This document shows positions 8,327-64,000 of a stretch of 64,000 bases of DNA, one piece after another. This DNA comes from a virus, in the IMG/VR virus record IMGVR_UViG_3300042691_038096, positions 1-64,000 of that record. One strand, given 5' to 3'. The translations under genes and the position numbers were made by a program. Within the stretch, counting starts at the first letter, position 1, and every line of letters starts with the position of its first letter. The notes beneath the pieces are model-generated. The model was not told where the DNA came from. It made no database searches and saw nothing but the letters and a program-made list of their open reading frames with translations.

Positions 8327-8779
8327 TTAAAATGTATTGTCCATGATGAACTTTTTGATATCTTCAACTAAAGCCTTCTTAGCTCTATCGGCTCCTGGCT
8401 TAAGATAGTCTTTTTCAATCATATAGTCAATTAAAACAGTTGCAAGTACCTGCGCCCCTGATGGTTTTTTATCTCCTGCGATTTGTACCATTGCTTCACT
8501 CATTGCAGAATAGCTTTCACATGCTTCATCAATTTTTTCATTGATATGTTTTTTAGCCTCTTTGATATAGGATTCTGCTGTATGCTCTGGATTATCATTA
8601 GTTTCGTATGCTTGTGCTTCTTTTGCTACACAATTTCCTAAATGCATAACAGGGCCTACGATTGCATCCATGTTATATCCTGTTCCAATGTTTCTACCGC
8701 CAGATAAAGAAAATGTTGCAGTAGTGTTACCACCAAAGCCAGCTGGTACGAAGTCTTCAAATAATTTAATTTTGTCCAT
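8327..8779 (-). CDS. Hypothetical protein with capsid-targeting-like N-terminus
   Basis: A 150-residue protein and the first gene of the minus-strand operon. It starts MDKIKLFEDFVPAGFGG, matching the K-x-F-x-x-F-hydrophobic motif shared with the proteins at 52668, 56206, 59838 and 60142. A glycine/threonine patch (GGNTTATFSLSGGRNIGTG) follows, then a helical domain. I do not recognise a family. The motif suggests packaging into the prohead. A late-promoter-like box lies just upstream on the same strand. Confidence 0.6.
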   Translation of the reverse strand: MDKIKLFEDFVPAGFGGNTTATFSLSGGRNIGTGYNMDAIVGPVMHLGNCVAKEAQAYETNDNPEHTAESYIKEAKKHINEKIDEACESYSAMSEAMVQIAGDKKPSGAQVLATVLIDYMIEKDYLKPGADRAKKALVEDIKKFIMDNTF

Positions 8780-12105: not shown

Positions 12106-13416
12106 ATGGATATGGAAATACTAATTAAGGACCTCAATTATCTGCAATCCTTCCTGGATGAAATGAACGAATCATCTTCAGGTAATCATAAGATTGCAAC
12201 TATTCGTAAACATGCTGAATCTGATTTTCTAAAGAAGGTCTTTAATTACACCTACAATCCATTCAAAAAGTATGGTGTTCATACCAGAGTTCTTAAAAAG
12301 AATTCTCACCTTAATGCACCAGAGAATTTGTATTCTGACCTATTCCAATTATTGGATGACCTGGCAGAAAACAATTTAACTGGGCATGCCGCTATCATGG
12401 CGGTAAATTCATTCGTAAATGAATTACCAGAGAATCTTCAAAAACTGATCCACTATATTTTGGATAGAGACCTTCGTATGGGTGCCTCTATTACATCGGT
12501 ACTTAAAATTCATCCTAATATTATTCCTATCTTTAAGGTAGCACTCGCACACCCTTATTCGCCAAGCCGAGTAAACTTCCAAAAAGAAGAATGGTTCGGT
12601 TCTCGTAAACTTGACGGAGTCCGTTGTATCTGCCGCAAGGAAGGTAACACAGTAACTTTTTATTCAAGGAATGGTAAAGAATTTGAAACTCTAGGTCGTA
12701 TCGCCGAGGATGTGAAACAGATACCAGGTAACTTTATCCTAGATGGAGAAGTCTGTATGGTTGACCAAAATGGTAAGGAAGACTTCCAAGGTATTATGAA
12801 GGAAATCCGCCGTAAGGATCATACTATTAAGAATCCTAAATTCCTGGTATTTGACTGTCTTACCATAACCGAATTTGATAATCACACTGGAACTACCAAA
12901 CTATCTGACCGTTTACAAAGAACTGAAATGTTAGAAATTTCAAAAGGACATTTGGAAACACTAACACTCGTTGACCAGGTACTTATTACCACTGACGAAC
13001 AGTTTACCGAAATGGCTAAGGATGCCGAGATTAATGGTTATGAAGGTATCATGGTTCGTAAGAACATTGGTTATGAAGGTACTCGTTCACATAACCTTCT
13101 TAAGGTAAAGAAATTCCATGATGAGGAATACACGGTTTTAGAATGTGTGAACGGTACAATCCGATGGACTGAAAATGGCCAACAGGTAGAAAAGGAATGT
13201 TTAAGCAGTATCATTATTGAACATAAAGGGTACCGGGTATCGGTAGGATCTGGTTTTTCAAAAGAACAACGAGAGTATTACCTTAACCGCCATGATGAAC
13301 TAATCGGTAAGACCGTAACTGTTCAGTATTTTGAAGAATCACAAAATCAGATGGGTGGATATTCATTAAGATTCCCTGTCGTAAAACATATATATGATAA
13401 TGGTCGAGATTGTTAA
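12106..13416 (+). CDS. lig: ATP-dependent DNA ligase
   Basis: The 436-residue protein has the order expected of T4 gp30-type ligases: an N-terminal helical domain (1-150), the adenylation motif RKLDGVR with catalytic Lys168, a FILDGEVCMVD motif III, an EGIMVRK motif IV (about 315-321), a LLKVKKF motif V, and a C-terminal OB fold (IIEHKGYRVSVGSGF). It seals nicks, joining Okazaki fragments made with the phage primase. It is slightly shorter than T4 ligase (487). The start at 12106 has an AT-rich promoter-like region (12081-12100) ahead of it. Confidence 0.93.
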   Translation: MDMEILIKDLNYLQSFLDEMNESSSGNHKIATIRKHAESDFLKKVFNYTYNPFKKYGVHTRVLKKNSHLNAPENLYSDLFQLLDDLAENNLTGHAAIMAVNSFVNELPENLQKLIHYILDRDLRMGASITSVLKIHPNIIPIFKVALAHPYSPSRVNFQKEEWFGSRKLDGVRCICRKEGNTVTFYSRNGKEFETLGRIAEDVKQIPGNFILDGEVCMVDQNGKEDFQGIMKEIRRKDHTIKNPKFLVFDCLTITEFDNHTGTTKLSDRLQRTEMLEISKGHLETLTLVDQVLITTDEQFTEMAKDAEINGYEGIMVRKNIGYEGTRSHNLLKVKKFHDEEYTVLECVNGTIRWTENGQQVEKECLSSIIIEHKGYRVSVGSGFSKEQREYYLNRHDELIGKTVTVQYFEESQNQMGGYSLRFPVVKHIYDNGRDC

Positions 13417-58436: not shown

Positions 58437-59822
58437 ATGAAGCCAATTAAAAAGTTTTCAGCTACTTCTACAGATAGTTCATCTATCTTAGAATCAGCAA
58501 ATCTTAGCCCAGAAGCTTTAGCAGAATTAGTTCAAAAGTTGGGTTACAATAATATTGATGAAATAAAGAAAGAGAAAGCTCTTCTTTCTAAATTAGAAGC
58601 TCTTCTTAAAGAATTCAATCCTAAACAAGATGTAAGCGAAGATGACGCTGAAGATATTGAAGATGAGATTAATGATTTAGGAGAACCTAAGTCTCTAGAA
58701 GATAAAGACGGTGAAAAAGAAGAAGACAAGGAAGTTGGATCAACCTCTGAAGTTGCTGAAGGTGACGAAGAAATTGCTGCACCTGAGACTGGATCTGAAG
58801 ATACCGATGAAGATTATGTAGACCCTAATACTTTACCTAAAGGCGTTCTTGATTATGTTTCTTCTAAATATGCTGATGCTAAAATAACTAAAGCTGAAAG
58901 TGATGAAGAGGGTTTTGAAGTATACTTAAGTAATGGCTTAGAACTTAAATTTGATGCAAACGGTAATTTTGTTACCGCTGAAGTTGAAGAAGATGCTGCT
59001 GAAGATATTGAAGGCGATATTAAAGATTTAGGAGAACCTAAAGAAGACAGTGAAAAGGACGGAGAAAAGGTAGTAACAAAAGATCAGGAAATTACGGCAG
59101 ATGTACCTGGTGAAGGAGACGATGAAGAGTCCGGAACCAATCCTGTTACAAAACGTCGTATTATGACTTTTGATGATTTTGTTAAGGAAGAAGAAGAAAC
59201 AATTAATAAAAACGTTTCTTATCAGGATGACGAAGAAGAAGATGAAGATAATGCTTTACCTGTAGCTGATTCTGTTGAGACAGAAGAAACTAAGGAAGAA
59301 GAGATTGAAGAAACTGTTTCTAGAACTACATCATCAATTAAATCATTCTCTCAATTTGTTTCTGAATCATATCTTTCTGAAGAAGCTGATAATGGTCCAG
59401 AATTAAAAGAAGAAACACCTGACGCAAATGGTATCGCAATTACTATTGCTAAAGGCGACGGTTCAGAAACTGCTGCTGGCATTTCTGCTGAAACTATGAA
59501 AATGGGTGAACCTGAAGAAAAGAAAGAAGAAGAGGGTGAAGAATTGGTAACTAAAGATCAAAAGATTACCAAAGAACCTGAAACTTCAAAGGATGAACCT
59601 ACTGTTCAAGGTACCGTTGTAGTAAAAGAAGGTAAGATTAGCGAAAAGGAAATTAAATCCGATGCTGATTTTGAAGAATATGCAACTGAGATTTTGAAAT
59701 CTGCACACGGTGCTGATTTTGATGAAGCAAAAGCCAAAGAAGTTATTGATGGCCTTAAGTCTAAATATAAAGGAGACTTTGGTGCAATGGTTGGAGCTTT
59801 ACAGTCCTCTATGGGAAAATAA
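58437..59822 (+). CDS. Acidic scaffold-like protein with PepSY-like domain
   Basis: A 461-residue, very acidic protein (Glu and Asp exceed a quarter of the length). A short PepSY-like beta domain is visible at about residues 134-181 (LPKGVLDYVSSKYADAKITK, then GFEVYLSNGLELKFDANGN), a fold common in Bacteroidota. The repeated segment LGEPK..KDGEK..TKDQ.IT occurs three times (about 81-100, 198-222, 357-378). Two internal copies of the capsid-targeting-like motif occur at 241-251 (MTFDDFVKE) and 300-311 (KSFSQFVSE). The composition resembles prohead core proteins such as gp22, gp67 and gp68. I infer a scaffold or internal head protein. Confidence 0.6.
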   Translation: MKPIKKFSATSTDSSSILESANLSPEALAELVQKLGYNNIDEIKKEKALLSKLEALLKEFNPKQDVSEDDAEDIEDEINDLGEPKSLEDKDGEKEEDKEVGSTSEVAEGDEEIAAPETGSEDTDEDYVDPNTLPKGVLDYVSSKYADAKITKAESDEEGFEVYLSNGLELKFDANGNFVTAEVEEDAAEDIEGDIKDLGEPKEDSEKDGEKVVTKDQEITADVPGEGDDEESGTNPVTKRRIMTFDDFVKEEEETINKNVSYQDDEEEDEDNALPVADSVETEETKEEEIEETVSRTTSSIKSFSQFVSESYLSEEADNGPELKEETPDANGIAITIAKGDGSETAAGISAETMKMGEPEEKKEEEGEELVTKDQKITKEPETSKDEPTVQGTVVVKEGKISEKEIKSDADFEEYATEILKSAHGADFDEAKAKEVIDGLKSKYKGDFGAMVGALQSSMGK

Positions 59823-59837
59823 TAAAAATTTTAAGAG

Positions 59838-60137
59838 ATGAATAATATTAAAAAATTCAATGAATTTATAAATGAATCTCTCAATGAGAAGGCCGAAGCC
59901 AAAGTAGGTGATCATGTATTTGTTGATGGAATGTTTTTACCAAAAGATATTAAATGGGAAATTTCTAAAATCACTGATGTTAAGTCTGGTATGTTTAAAG
60001 GTGATACCAAATATGATTTAGTATCTGTTCTTAATCCTGATGTTACTAGTATAATATATGGCGGAGAACAGTTAAAACCTTGGACTAAATCAGATGATGG
60101 TATGAAACCTAAAGGTAAAGGAAATTACATAAAGTAA
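59838..60137 (+). CDS. Small protein with capsid-targeting-like start
   Basis: A 99-residue protein beginning MNNIKKFNEFINESLNEKAE, containing the KFNEFINE motif. Residues 22-80 look like a small beta-barrel domain (AKVGDHVFVDGMFLPKDIKW). A Lys/Gly-rich end follows. It is four bases upstream of the ligase-fold gene at 60142. The motif suggests packaging into the head. Confidence 0.6.
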   Translation: MNNIKKFNEFINESLNEKAEAKVGDHVFVDGMFLPKDIKWEISKITDVKSGMFKGDTKYDLVSVLNPDVTSIIYGGEQLKPWTKSDDGMKPKGKGNYIK

Positions 60138-60141
60138 AACC

Positions 60142-61413
60142 ATGAAGTATATTAAGCTTTTTGAACAATGGCTGGCCGATCAAAGCCAGCCATTGCTTTT
60201 AGAAGGTGGCGCTGCCGGCCACATGAATCATCCCTTTGATGACAAAGGATTAACATTTGGTGATTTTAAGAGTATCATTGATGCCGGTCTTCGTGGTGAA
60301 TTAAACTTTGAAGAAGATCCTACTGAAAAGACCGATGGTCAAAATGTATGGGCTACTATTCAGGATGGACAGGTAAAATTTGCAAGAAATAAGGGAGAGA
60401 GTATTACTCCAATGACTCTTTCTGATTTTAAGCAAAAATTTGCAGATCATCCAAGTGCATCCGTGAGAGATACATTCCAATTTGCTGCACAGGATCTTGC
60501 TGACCTTTTAATTAAATTACCTCAAAAAGTTCAGGATAGTACATTTGAAAACGGTAAGAATTTCATGAACATGGAACTTATCTATTCTAAGAATCCTAAT
60601 GTTATTAATTATGATACTGATGTTATTCAGTTTCATAACATAACTAAAACTGATGGCAACGGTAATGTTATTGGTACTGAGGCTAGACCTGCAAAAGAGA
60701 TCCCCGCTATCCTATCTAAAGTTCAAGCTGATTTAGGAAAAACATTTAAGATCATTCCTCCTAGAGTCATACAATTACAACAGGATATGGACTTTAGTGA
60801 AAATAAACAAAAGTTCATTAATAAAGTACTTGAGTTACAAAAGAGATATAATCTTAATGATGGCGATGAGGTATCCAGATATCATGAAATGTGGTGGAGA
60901 GAATTAATTGATAAAGAATTTCCTTCAGCTCCACAAGATGTAAAAGAAGGTCTTTTAAGAAGATGGGCTTATGATGATAAGAATACCTTAAATATGAGAT
61001 CCTTAGATAAAGTGTTAACACCAGATGAAGCTGCAAAGATTAAGAAGTTTGATAAGGAAGATGTTAAGAAAAAGTATAAAGAAAACATTAGACCTTTTGA
61101 AGATCTATTCCTAGAGTTAGGATCTGTTATTCTTAAGAATGCAAGTAACTTTCTTGCGGCTGATCCTACTGGAGAAACCGAAAGACTTCGTGCATATCTA
61201 CAAGCTGAAGCTGATAAGATTAGAAAAACTGGTGGAGCTGACCAGGTTAAAAAGGTAGAAGATGAATTGGCTAGACTGGATAGAATCGGTGGTATTAATT
61301 CAATATTCCCTACTGAAGGTATCGTATTTAGATACAATGGTAAACTTTATAAACTAACTGGAACCTTTGCTGCACTTAACCAATTATTAGGTATTATTAA
61401 GTACGGTAGATAA
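60142..61413 (+). CDS. Nucleotidyltransferase (ligase-fold) enzyme with capsid-targeting-like start
   Basis: A 423-residue protein beginning MKYIKLFEQWLADQ. Covalent-nucleotidyltransferase motifs are in order: EKTDGQN at residues 62-68 (Lys63 as putative adenylated lysine), a motif III-like MNMELIY, EGIVFRY at 392-398 (motif IV) and LYKLTG at 402-407 (motif V lysine, K404). This order is that of ATP-dependent DNA and RNA ligases, but no clear OB fold follows, since motif V is near the C-terminus. It may be an RNA-ligase-type enzyme. The motif at its start suggests packaging in the virion. Confidence 0.65.
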   Translation: MKYIKLFEQWLADQSQPLLLEGGAAGHMNHPFDDKGLTFGDFKSIIDAGLRGELNFEEDPTEKTDGQNVWATIQDGQVKFARNKGESITPMTLSDFKQKFADHPSASVRDTFQFAAQDLADLLIKLPQKVQDSTFENGKNFMNMELIYSKNPNVINYDTDVIQFHNITKTDGNGNVIGTEARPAKEIPAILSKVQADLGKTFKIIPPRVIQLQQDMDFSENKQKFINKVLELQKRYNLNDGDEVSRYHEMWWRELIDKEFPSAPQDVKEGLLRRWAYDDKNTLNMRSLDKVLTPDEAAKIKKFDKEDVKKKYKENIRPFEDLFLELGSVILKNASNFLAADPTGETERLRAYLQAEADKIRKTGGADQVKKVEDELARLDRIGGINSIFPTEGIVFRYNGKLYKLTGTFAALNQLLGIIKYGR

Positions 61414-61419
61414 TACCAG

Positions 61420-61438
61420 ATCTTACCTCTAGTAAGAT
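61420..61438 (+). other. Short hairpin after ligase-fold gene
   Basis: A perfect 7-bp inverted repeat, ATCTTAC (61420-61426) with GTAAGAT (61432-61438), lies just after the stop at 61413. It may protect the mRNA 3' end. It lacks a U-tract. Confidence 0.35.
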
Positions 61439-61486
61439 ATCTAATTTAAGTAATAGGAAACTATTTTTATATAAATCGGTAACGAT

Positions 61487-61513
61487 AATGGGTGAGCTAT
61501 CGTCTCACCCATT
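61487..61513 (+). terminator. Probable transcription terminator
   Basis: AATGGGTGAG (61487-61496) pairs perfectly with CTCACCCATT (61504-61513) around a 7-base loop. The sequence after it is T-rich (TCATTTATG). It closes the operon ending with the ligase-fold gene and precedes a new promoter-like box. Confidence 0.7.
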
Positions 61514-61533
61514 TCATTTATGTAATTTTCTAA

Positions 61534-61547
61534 GAATATATAAAAGG
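61534..61547 (+). promoter_or_regulatory. Late-promoter-like box
   Basis: GAATATATAAAAGG lies 18 bases before the ATG at 61566, after the terminator. It is a typical copy of the recurring element. Confidence 0.5.
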
Positions 61548-61565
61548 TAATACAAAATAAATTAA

Positions 61566-64000
61566 ATGAAGGAATTAGCTAGAATTTACAAAGAGTTAGG
61601 ACAGGACTTTGTTAATGATCTCTTTAAAGACTACCTCGTGGTAACAGAAAAGTTATCAGGGTCTGCGTTTTCATTTGAAAAGGCCGGATCATCATTAAAA
61701 TTCTTTAAGTCTAATGATAAGCCTATTAACCTTGTTGATAGAACATTAATGGTTTATTATGAAAAACCTATTAATTACATTAAAGATTCGACCGATTCAT
61801 TTATGGATTCTATTCCAGGTAATTGGAGATTCTGTTTTCAGTACTTTGTTCATAATGAACCCGGTGTAATCCGATATGATAAATTACCAAAAAATAATCT
61901 GGTCTTAACTCATATTCTTGTAAAGAATCCTAACGGTAAAGTTACTAAGATTATTGAAGATCCTAGAGTTATTGAAGACTGGTCAAATGCATTAGGGGTT
62001 ACTCCTCTTTTACCAATCTTTAAGGGATACTTAACAGATGAACAAAAAGAAAGCATTAAAAAATTCATTAAGACTCCAATAGAAGATCAATTAGAGATAT
62101 TCAAAACATCTTCTTTTGCAGAGTATCTTATAAAGGTTCTTAATCCAAAACTAAATTCTACAATACTTCAAGATGATTTGAGTAAACCTATAGAATCAAT
62201 CATTTTTAAGTTTTATAAAACAGGAGGTACACAAATCATTTCTGCTAAGCTTATTGATCCTTATACTGCGAATCTATTAAAGCATAGAGAACCTATCGAT
62301 CCTAAGAAGGCACCAGCCGATGTTAATGAAATCTTACTGCTTGACATTCTTGCCTTTATAGAAGAAAGAGGTCTAAGATCAAATGAGTTATTAACAGCAT
62401 CGCCCGATGAAAGGTATCTTGAATTGGTATCATCAATCTTTAATGATTATGTTGTAAGAAGAGGTAAAGGAATTTCTGATTTAGGAATTGAAAGAGCGGA
62501 CTTTGCAAAAGGCGATGAATTCAAATTAAATGTAGATCTTATACCAAGCCAAGCCACACAGGCTACTCTTAAACAGAACGAAAAGATGCAAGATTTATTT
62601 AAGATTATGTTAGGCTCTCTTCGTAAGAAAAGAAATCCTGACAAACCTGGTAATGTTTTAACACCATCGGTTATAGAAGATTTTAATGCACTGGTTTCTA
62701 AAATAGAAGATGCAATTAATAAACCAGTTGATGATAAGTTTAAGACCTTTTCTGATTATCTTAATCTTAAGAAGACTAATGAATCATATCAAACGGTTGA
62801 AGATATGATTTTGGAAGAAAAAATCTTAAACTATAATAAATTTATAAATTTAGGAAGAGTTGAAATTCAATATTCAACTAAGTTAGAAGAGGCCGCAGGA
62901 TTAACAAGAAGACAGCAAGATTGGATTAAGAAATATGAAAGATTTTCTAATTCATCAAATTGGGTTAAGCCAAAATCTAAAGTAAAAGGAGAGGTTCTTA
63001 GAGCTGATTTTGGAATGAATGATGGTACTGCCGAAAAAAATATTGAAAACTTTTTACTTAAAGAGTTAGGAATTAAGAGATCTGATTATACGATTGAACA
63101 AATATCTACTGGAACATATGTCCCAAATGCAGGAGGAAAAATATCAAGTGATTATAATTCTTATGCAATTACAATAGTCAATCCTATTAAAGACAGTCTT
63201 GGCGAATCATATAAGAACGGCGATATCTTTTATATAACAAATCGCTTAAAGGTAGAAAAGAGTACTGGTTTAGCGGCTGTCATTGGCAAAAAAGATTTAA
63301 CACCGGATGCAATGGGATTACCTACAGCAGAATATAAAGATTCTCAAAGTTTATTTTCAAAAATTGAAAGTTATGTTAATAGGCTATCATATCCTGACAA
63401 TTACAAAAATTTTATTATTGAATCTACGAGAGAATTGATGACTAATACAAAAAATGCAAATTCATTTTCTGATTTTGAAACATATGCAAATTCTTCGGCC
63501 GGCTATTTATTTTATGATATAACAGATTCCTTATTTGACGGGATTGATGCAATATCAATCAATAACTTCCAAAATGACTATGGCGAAATATTAGGCGGTT
63601 TTATGCTGTTTAATCTTCTTAAAGATACTGGTGCAGGTTTAAGATATCCTACCGCATCTAATGAAAGAATGGTTGATTTTTTCTTTGATGATTATAGTAT
63701 ATCTTCTAAGGCTGGAAGTGGCGGTACCCCAAGTGGAGATACTATTATACAAAAAATGTATTCAATGTATAATTCGGGTCACTTACATTTTGATACTCAA
63801 CCTGAACAAGACTTCCTAAATAATGTGATTAAGCAATGGGTTAATCCGCCTAATCTTGATAAAAGTGTTATCTATAATAACATAATGAATTTATGTAGCG
63901 TTAATATTCCTAGTTCAACCAATAACTCTGGTTATTGGTATATTTTAGGAAAGGCTAACGTACAGCCTTCTTCTGCATATAAAGATGTACTAATATCATA
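61566..64000 (+). CDS. Large protein with nucleotidyltransferase-like N-terminus (3' truncated)
   Basis: The frame is open from the ATG at 61566 to the window edge (811 codons seen, no stop). The N-terminal part has a ligase-type layout: TEKLSGSAF with Lys29 (motif I-like), a WRFCFQYFVH motif III-like segment, KPIESIIFKF and QIISAKLIDP (motif IV/V-like). A long helical middle follows, with a KTFSDYLNL stretch. The last third has a distinct domain with DYSISSKAGSGGTPS, recalling an S-x-K nuclease-like site. The enzyme activity is unproven. It is probably a second virion-related ligase-fold protein. Confidence 0.55.
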   Translation, partial: MKELARIYKELGQDFVNDLFKDYLVVTEKLSGSAFSFEKAGSSLKFFKSNDKPINLVDRTLMVYYEKPINYIKDSTDSFMDSIPGNWRFCFQYFVHNEPGVIRYDKLPKNNLVLTHILVKNPNGKVTKIIEDPRVIEDWSNALGVTPLLPIFKGYLTDEQKESIKKFIKTPIEDQLEIFKTSSFAEYLIKVLNPKLNSTILQDDLSKPIESIIFKFYKTGGTQIISAKLIDPYTANLLKHREPIDPKKAPADVNEILLLDILAFIEERGLRSNELLTASPDERYLELVSSIFNDYVVRRGKGISDLGIERADFAKGDEFKLNVDLIPSQATQATLKQNEKMQDLFKIMLGSLRKKRNPDKPGNVLTPSVIEDFNALVSKIEDAINKPVDDKFKTFSDYLNLKKTNESYQTVEDMILEEKILNYNKFINLGRVEIQYSTKLEEAAGLTRRQQDWIKKYERFSNSSNWVKPKSKVKGEVLRADFGMNDGTAEKNIENFLLKELGIKRSDYTIEQISTGTYVPNAGGKISSDYNSYAITIVNPIKDSLGESYKNGDIFYITNRLKVEKSTGLAAVIGKKDLTPDAMGLPTAEYKDSQSLFSKIESYVNRLSYPDNYKNFIIESTRELMTNTKNANSFSDFETYANSSAGYLFYDITDSLFDGIDAISINNFQNDYGEILGGFMLFNLLKDTGAGLRYPTASNERMVDFFFDDYSISSKAGSGGTPSGDTIIQKMYSMYNSGHLHFDTQPEQDFLNNVIKQWVNPPNLDKSVIYNNIMNLCSVNIPSSTNNSGYWYILGKANVQPSSAYKDVLIS

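Follow-up and report, generated by a model that had tools for sequence, protein, structure and literature searches.

A predicted RNA-ligase-like enzyme bearing a capsid-targeting-like tag, and a neighboring Rnl2-like protein, in a T4-like virus of bacteria

We identified two neighboring genes in a T4-like virus of bacteria whose products are predicted to contain RNA-ligase-like domains. The first (gene 1) combines an essentially invariant active site with an N-terminal sequence resembling the signal that directs proteins into the T4 head – implying that the virus may bring a ready-made RNA-repair enzyme into the cell with its DNA. We analyzed a window of 64,000 bases (positions 1 to 64,000 of the 64,998-base record IMGVR_UViG_3300042691_038096); gene 2 runs past the end of this window and encodes 943 amino acids in the full record. 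An earlier note, based on the sequence alone, had reported two genes with nucleotidyltransferase motifs, a capsid-targeting-like tag on the first, and a separate ordinary DNA ligase elsewhere in the window. We found this observation to be correct: both open reading frames and their motifs are present where described, and the ATP-dependent DNA ligase is real (Pfam DNA_ligase_A_M, 4.5e-23; phrog_114, 7.9e-84).

Table 1. Coordinates of the two genes, their parts and nearby features in the window
Coordinates	Strand	Feature	Residues or sequence
12106-13416		ATP-dependent DNA ligase	
58437-59822	+	Acidic 461-aa gene with tag-like start	MKPIKKF..ILES
59838-60137	+	Small tagged gene directly upstream of gene 1	MNNIKKFNEFINESLNE
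60142-61413	+	Gene 1	423 aa
60142-60204	+	Gene 1 capsid-targeting-like propeptide, predicted cleavage after E21	aa 1-21; MKYIKLFEQWLAD..LLLE; LLE|GG
60205-61410	+	Gene 1 predicted RNA-ligase-type covalent nucleotidyltransferase with helical insertion (about aa 218-381), no OB domain	aa 22-423
60325-60339	+	Gene 1 motif I, predicted nucleophile Lys63 (codon 60328-60330)	EKTDG, aa 62-66
60568-60585	+	Gene 1 motif III	NMELIY, Glu145
61312-61362	+	Gene 1 motifs IV and V	TEGIVFRY, aa 391-398 (E392, G393); LYKLTG, aa 402-407 (K404)
61566-62555	+	Gene 2 N-terminal domain, predicted T4 Rnl2-like fold with partly eroded active site	about aa 1-330; EKLSG, aa 28-32; IESIIFKF, aa 209-216; ISAKL, aa 225-229
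62817-62890	+	Gene 2 internal tag-like sequence and predicted cleavage site	EKILNYNKFINLGRVEI; aa 418-434; LEE|A
62891-64000	+	Gene 2 C-terminal cargo, continuing to 64397 in the record	aa 443-943; motif DYSISSKAGSGGTPSGD

Predicted ligase folds and conservation of the active sites

Single-sequence searches of Pfam, PHROGs and PDB sequences identified no family for either gene. We used structure prediction, which the earlier note had proposed as a check. The AlphaFold model of gene 1 was confident (pLDDT 91.3, pTM 0.86) and has a covalent-nucleotidyltransferase fold. The top 25 Foldseek matches were all ligases, nearly all of them RNA ligases, with T4 Rnl1 the best – though E-values were modest (3.4e-3) and TM scores low, probably because of the helical insertion. 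VIA Z scores were 7-9.9 for RNA ligases (9.9 to NgrRnl, 8.9 to T4 Rnl1), compared to 5.5-8.0 for DNA ligases, most of which scored 5.5-7.2. A structural neighbor was also found in Pseudomonas phage PA5oct. By sequence, 17 of 67 family members weakly matched Pfam RNA_ligase (PF09414), the commonest weak hit (best 9.5e-4), while the window protein did not match.

Consistent with a covalent nucleotidyltransferase, the gene 1 motif residues are about 100% conserved over 139 distinct relatives. The KxDG motif retains its lysine (K63) in 138 of 139, and D65, G66, E145, E392, G393 and K404 are present in 139 of 139; R82 and N83 are likewise invariant. The single apparent loss of K63, in the relative designated L114, reflects an intein (TIGR01445, 51.4 bits against a cutoff of 24.5) inserted exactly between K63 and T64. 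The earlier note had not recognized motif III or an invariant HxxHP before motif I. The protein ends 19 residues after K404 and lacks the OB fold and motif VI expected of an ATP-dependent DNA ligase, making it RNA-ligase-like, not a DNA ligase.

The N-terminal domain of gene 2 is predicted to adopt a T4 Rnl2-type catalytic fold (Foldseek E 3.1e-5, probability 1.00; VIA Z 10.5), but its catalytic set is incomplete. The motif III glutamate is Gln in 33 of 33 members of its subgroup, and conservation across the family is patchy: K29 is present in 58 of 62 members (N or D in the other four), K215 in 36 of 62 and K228 in 31 of 62. Gene 2 may therefore not adenylate. Profile comparison found no sequence relation between gene 1 and gene 2, or between gene 1 and the window's DNA ligase; the link is structural only.

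Capsid-targeting-like tags and genomic context

Gene 1 begins with a sequence that matches a T4-type capsid-targeting propeptide ending in a prohead-protease site. Its hydrophobic residues at positions 4 and 7 match the residues of the T4 CTS that are important for targeting, and L/I-X-E is the gp21 processing site (PMC9026906). Among relatives of gene 1, 133 of 135 keep [LIVMF]xE|G, with L or I at P3 in 127, and residues 17-25 of the model have pLDDT below 50 – though E21 could be conserved for catalysis instead of cleavage. The tag (MKHIKLFEQFVNEA) is not confined to gene 1: it matched 176 of 1942 distinct non-gene-1 genes, compared to 25 +/- 5 in shuffles. The same tag starts at least 97 other distinct genes, some of them beside the portal, protease and major-capsid genes, and position 13 of the tag, which was not selected for, is Glu in 84 of 97. 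In the relatives designated L191, L194 and L195 a tagged gene lies just upstream of gp21, and in L198 another lies between gp21 and gp23. Among nine long relatives, the gp21 family is present in eight and gp23 in seven; the window's record, which is a fragment, shows no gp21. The acidic gene upstream of gene 1 had no family of clear meaning.

In contrast to gene 1, gene 2 has no N-terminal tag; its tag-like sequence is internal. Here 20 of 25 relatives have [LIV]xE[AGS], compared to 8% in random windows, and residues 388-443 have pLDDT below 50. The predicted cleavage site precedes a C-terminal cargo, absent from the earlier note's account, that is swapped between close relatives. The cargo gave no match in Pfam, NCBIfam or PADLOC. 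S-x-K-G patterns led us to suspect PD-(D/E)XK-type nucleases, a suspicion that rests on these patterns alone.

Relatives of gene 1 often sit beside, or are fused to, NMNAT-like, kinase-like and Pol-beta-like domains. An NMNAT-like domain occurs in 93 of 137 p1 loci and is fused in 37, and the gene order P1-NMNAT-PolB-like-P2 is found in L106, L113 and L116. Marine fusions carry a P-loop kinase with a weak polynucleotide-kinase match (phrog_505, 2e-6).

Candidate roles and comparison with known systems

These results partly support the earlier note's interpretation that both genes encode head-packaged ligase-fold enzymes that could seal or repair injected DNA or act on host RNA on entry. Ligase-type folds, distinction from the replicative DNA ligase, and a capsid-targeting-like propeptide on gene 1 are supported; an intact active site and an N-terminal tag on gene 2 are not. 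We also found no characterized head-packaged ligase in the literature searched, so the note's statement that it knew of no precedent stands to that extent.

We favor, with moderate confidence, a model in which gene 1 is an ATP-dependent (or otherwise nucleotide-dependent) RNA-ligase-type enzyme made late in infection. In this view, its first 21 residues carry it into the prohead core, and the gp21-type prohead protease cuts after LLE to leave a mature enzyme beginning at Gly22 in the DNA-filled head. The enzyme would be ejected with the genome and, with Lys63 forming the enzyme-nucleotide intermediate, would seal broken RNA – most plausibly tRNA cut by host defense nucleases – before any phage gene is expressed, perhaps as part of an RNA-repair kit. 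Gene 2 would be a second Rnl2-like protein with an altered active site, fused to a separately tagged cargo, and either a companion or a carrier. Computation establishes the predicted fold, the conserved catalytic set, the shared tag and protease site, and the T4-type head genes of relatives, whereas adenylation and ligase activity, cleavage, virion packaging, injection, RNA as the substrate and the anti-defense role are inferred. We found no virion proteomics, activity or cleavage data, and a literature search returned nothing on this family or on Microcystis phage Mel-JY01, the one isolate with a relative, WWT39297.1, whose predicted cleavage site is IIAE|GG. Two further points weigh against the model: NMNAT partners are not a standard part of RNA repair, and some relatives carry a separate ordinary RNA ligase.

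Three alternatives seem unlikely, to a similar degree, but are not excluded. A head-packaged enzyme could instead seal nicks or ends in the injected phage DNA, since it belongs to a superfamily shared with DNA ligases and would be present at DNA entry; however, it lacks an OB domain and motif VI, the best RNA ligases score higher than the DNA ligases in structural comparison, and the phage encodes an ordinary DNA ligase. The active site could attach a nucleotide to a host protein or small molecule – through AMPylation, or NAD-linked chemistry coupled to the neighboring NMNAT-like domain – and modify the host on entry like T4 Alt. That NMNAT-like domains are the strongest genomic partner favors this possibility, as does the HxxHP motif, which is not a known RNA-ligase feature, but the top structural matches are RNA ligases and there is no direct evidence for such a substrate. 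A related idea, considered only as a hypothesis, is an NAD+-dependent ligase whose NMN is recycled by the partner NMNAT.

Gene 1 could also be a normal intracellular RNA ligase that is not packaged and whose N-terminus is only a core-binding or regulatory tail. In keeping with this, virion data are lacking, some relatives start without a tag, and the gene 2 N-terminal domain has no N-terminal tag despite standing next to gene 1. Against it, 65 of 73 stand-alone relatives carry the tag, the tag is shared with many unrelated genes including some beside gp21 and gp23, and the protease site is conserved even in long fusions. A more far-reaching possibility, which we consider doubtful, is that these phages load and inject an entire RNA-repair kit – ligase, NMNAT-like adenylyltransferase, Pol-beta-like nucleotidyltransferase and, in marine forms, a P-loop kinase – made either as separately tagged proteins or as one polyprotein cut apart by the prohead protease, so that tRNA repair or nucleotide recycling begins before phage gene expression.

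Head-packaged and injected enzymes are known as a class (T4 Alt, T4 IPI, N4 vRNAP, polyvalent proteins). Gene 1 shares its fold and motifs I, III, IV and V, and the absence of an OB domain, with T4 Rnl1 and Rnl2, NgrRnl/Rnl5 and fungal Trl1; it differs in its large helical insertion between motifs IIIa and IV, the HxxHP before motif I, the lack of a family-specific C-terminal domain and the N-terminal capsid-targeting-like propeptide. T4 Rnl1 and Rnl2 are not known as injected head proteins. With the T4 internal head proteins (IPI, IPII, IPIII) and Alt it shares a short N-terminal propeptide with hydrophobic residues 4 and 7, an L/I-X-E protease site and an array of diverse cargos with one common tag, but the tag is about 13 residues here and the cargo is a ligase-type enzyme instead of an ADP-ribosyltransferase or a nuclease inhibitor. 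As in polyvalent proteins (Iyer et al. 2017, PMC5512222), relatives of gene 1 are often the C-terminal part of multidomain proteins, up to 1835 aa, with kinase, NMNAT and zincin-like parts; they differ in that nearly every p1 junction here carries a prohead-protease site, and we found no mention of RNA-ligase domains inside polyvalent proteins in the parts of that work consulted. Phage RNA repair systems (Pnkp, Rnl, RlaP Pol-beta; reviewed in PMC7824862) resemble the relatives in which a ligase lies beside kinase-like and Pol-beta-like enzymes, but here delivery in the virion, instead of synthesis after infection, is predicted.

Host defenses often cut tRNA early in infection, and known phage tRNA-repair enzymes must first be expressed. 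An injected ligase would act at time zero and would add RNA sealing to the short list of virion-delivered enzyme activities. The family is common in environmental viromes (570 and 545 related stretches) but nearly absent from cultured phages, with Mel-JY01 the one isolate – making it a large unstudied group with a clear test organism. The tag also provides a way to list the likely head-packaged proteins of these phages from sequence.

A predicted ligase-fold enzyme with a conserved active site

The two neighboring genes singled out in the earlier note are both present as described, and its observation holds, though gene 2 is cut by the window end. The window is a T4-like phage fragment that encodes baseplate and tail proteins, gp32-like and primase proteins, an ordinary ATP-dependent DNA ligase, and, from our reading of the sequence, a helicase-like protein. 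The gene following gene 2 starts with a tag-like sequence, MKNLKNIDSFLLEKK, and contains an NMNAT-like domain (CTP_transf_like, 1e-9).

Coordinates of the features discussed in the text
Feature	Location	Position	Size or remark
Minus-strand ORF with a tag-like start	window	8327-8779 (minus strand)	150 aa
ATP-dependent DNA ligase	window	from 12106	
Helicase-like gene	window	56873	
Gene 1	window	60142-61413	423 aa
Gene 2	window and full record	61566-64397	943 aa in the full 64,998-base record
Gene 2 C-terminal cargo	window	62891-64000	
Gene with NMNAT-like domain	full record	from 64416	
Intein in the gene 1 relative	L114	8130-8624	
Two tandem copies of the p1-p2 gene pair	L050	8001-15242	in one phage contig
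p1 fusion resembling polyvalent proteins	L173	4950-9200	

Single-sequence searches with gene 1 gave nothing. Scans of IMG/VR, however, identified 570 and 545 related stretches (individual relatives are denoted by L numbers), while the genome collection contributed only three MAG contigs. Across 139 distinct full-length domains, K63 is present in 138, and D65, G66, R82, N83, E145, E392, G393, K404, T406, and G407 are present in all. H27, H30, and P31, upstream of motif I, are invariant wherever that region is present. The single apparent loss of K63, in the relative L114, is explained by an intein inserted exactly between K63 and T64. The N-terminal part of this intein matches TIGR01445 at 51.4 bits (against a cutoff of 24.5), and the reading frame is broken inside the intein.

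An AlphaFold model of gene 1 based on a 67-sequence alignment had a pLDDT of 91.3 and a pTM of 0.86. The 25 best Foldseek matches in the PDB are all ligases, nearly all of them RNA ligases, with T4 Rnl1 first (E 3.4e-3, prob 0.87). VIA gave Z scores of 9.9 for Naegleria RNA ligase, 8.9 for T4 Rnl1, and 8.6 for Trl1 and REL1, whereas DNA ligases mostly lie at 5.5-7.2, with one at 8.0. When family members were scanned singly, Pfam RNA_ligase was the commonest weak match (17 of 67). The chain ends 19 residues after motif V, so the OB domain and motif VI of DNA ligases are missing.

A capsid-targeting-like propeptide and modular partners

We next examined the N-terminus of gene 1. Residues 17-25 have low model confidence, as a flexible linker would, and in 133 of 135 relatives the residues before the conserved GG are [LIVMF]-x-E, with L or I at P3 in 127. 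This fits the L/I-X-E motif of T4 gp21 (PMC9026906). T4 capsid-targeting sequences are 10-19-residue propeptides in which residues 4 and 7 matter most for targeting. The tag identified here has I/V/L at position 4 in 92 of 97 strict matches and F/Y at position 7 in 93 of 97 – though these two positions were part of the search pattern. Position 13, which was not, is Glu in 84 of 97.

The tag pattern is matched by 176 of 1942 distinct non-gene-1 genes, against 25 +/- 5 in shuffles. Relatives carry runs of such genes. Downstream of p1 (the gene 1 domain) in L101, L106, L111, L113, and L161, for example, many unrelated small genes all start with MK(H/N)I(K/P)xFExF(V/I/L)NE, providing a catalog of likely head-packaged proteins of these T4-like phages. 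A tagged gene lies just upstream of the gp21 homologue in L191, L194, and L195, and another lies between gp21 and gp23 in L198. The gp21 and gp23 families are found in 8/9 and 7/9 long relatives, respectively. Of 73 stand-alone gene 1 relatives, 65 are tagged; at least two of the other eight are wrong start choices and one is the intein case. Within the window, the minus-strand ORF also has a tag-like start, MDKIKLFEDFVPAGFGGN, but is located away from the head-gene region.

In many, mostly marine, relatives p1 is the C-terminal part of a long protein (up to 1835 aa), nearly always with (L/I)xE|GG at the junction. Some of these proteins carry NMNAT-like (CTP_transf_like) and AAA_33/Zeta-toxin-type kinase domains, the latter with a weak polynucleotide-kinase match. 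The fusion in L173 also contains a zincin-like HEMVH motif, a Gly-rich hydrophobic stretch, and an NMNAT-like domain. Overall, an NMNAT-like domain is present in 93 of 137 p1 loci and is fused to p1 in 37. In L106, L113, and L116, the gene order is p1, tagged NMNAT, tagged Pol-beta-like NTase, and p2 (the gene 2 relative). The Pol-beta assignment rests on our reading of the motif (GSxGKK..SGDIDIAV..QVDLML), as none of the libraries searched matched it.

Gene 2 has an Rnl2-like predicted fold and a replaceable cargo

The first ~240 residues of gene 2 have the T4 Rnl2 fold in the predicted structure (Foldseek E 3.1e-5, prob 1.00; VIA Z 10.5), with moderate model confidence overall (pLDDT 72.6). 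In the window’s subgroup K29, K215, and mostly K228 are kept, but the motif III Glu is Gln in 33/33. In the sister subgroup the acidic motif III residue is present, but the motif IV and V lysines are mostly lost. In L095, L096, and L097, megaphage genomes of 636-735 kb, gene 2 relatives have N or D in place of the motif I lysine. Of the ligase motif residues, only E28 is invariant over the family. This is a partly eroded or altered active site.

Residues 388-443 of gene 2 have a pLDDT under 50 and contain EKILNYNKFINLGRVEI, which resembles the gene 1 tags, followed by LEE|A. At this position 20 of 25 relatives have [LIV]xE[AGS], against 8% in random windows. The sequence that follows is unrelated between close relatives (L002 against L005), is an NMNAT-like domain (L089, L099), or is absent (L113, L116). 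C-terminal cargos are swapped between near-identical N-domains, and several of those compared (from the window, L005, L007, L027, L089, and L099) share an S-x-K-x-G-x-G-G-x-S pattern of unknown meaning that is possibly nuclease-like. Gene 2 therefore looks like a ligase-like protein fused to a separately tagged, replaceable cargo.

Likely role of p1 on phage entry

Head-packaged enzymes and phage RNA ligases have both been described, but we found no described case that joins them. A survey of injected multidomain proteins (PMC5512222) discusses phage RNA ligases only as separate systems in the sections consulted. Among 50,697 phage records, only one isolate, Microcystis phage Mel-JY01, has p1, where it is annotated as cytidylyltransferase-like. 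More distant structural relatives exist in predicted structures of other phages.

Our computational analyses show the fold, the conserved active site, the tag, and the protease site of gene 1. The steps that would connect these features remain inferences: entry into the prohead core by means of the tag, trimming after E21, ejection with the DNA, formation of enzyme-AMP on K63, and sealing of RNA ends – most plausibly those of tRNA cut by defense nucleases. The earlier note’s interpretation of the two genes as possible head-packaged ligase-fold enzymes is supported in part. The tag argues against a purely intracellular enzyme, and the missing OB domain argues against a DNA ligase. Some relatives also have a separate ordinary RNA ligase, which fits a special role for p1 on entry.
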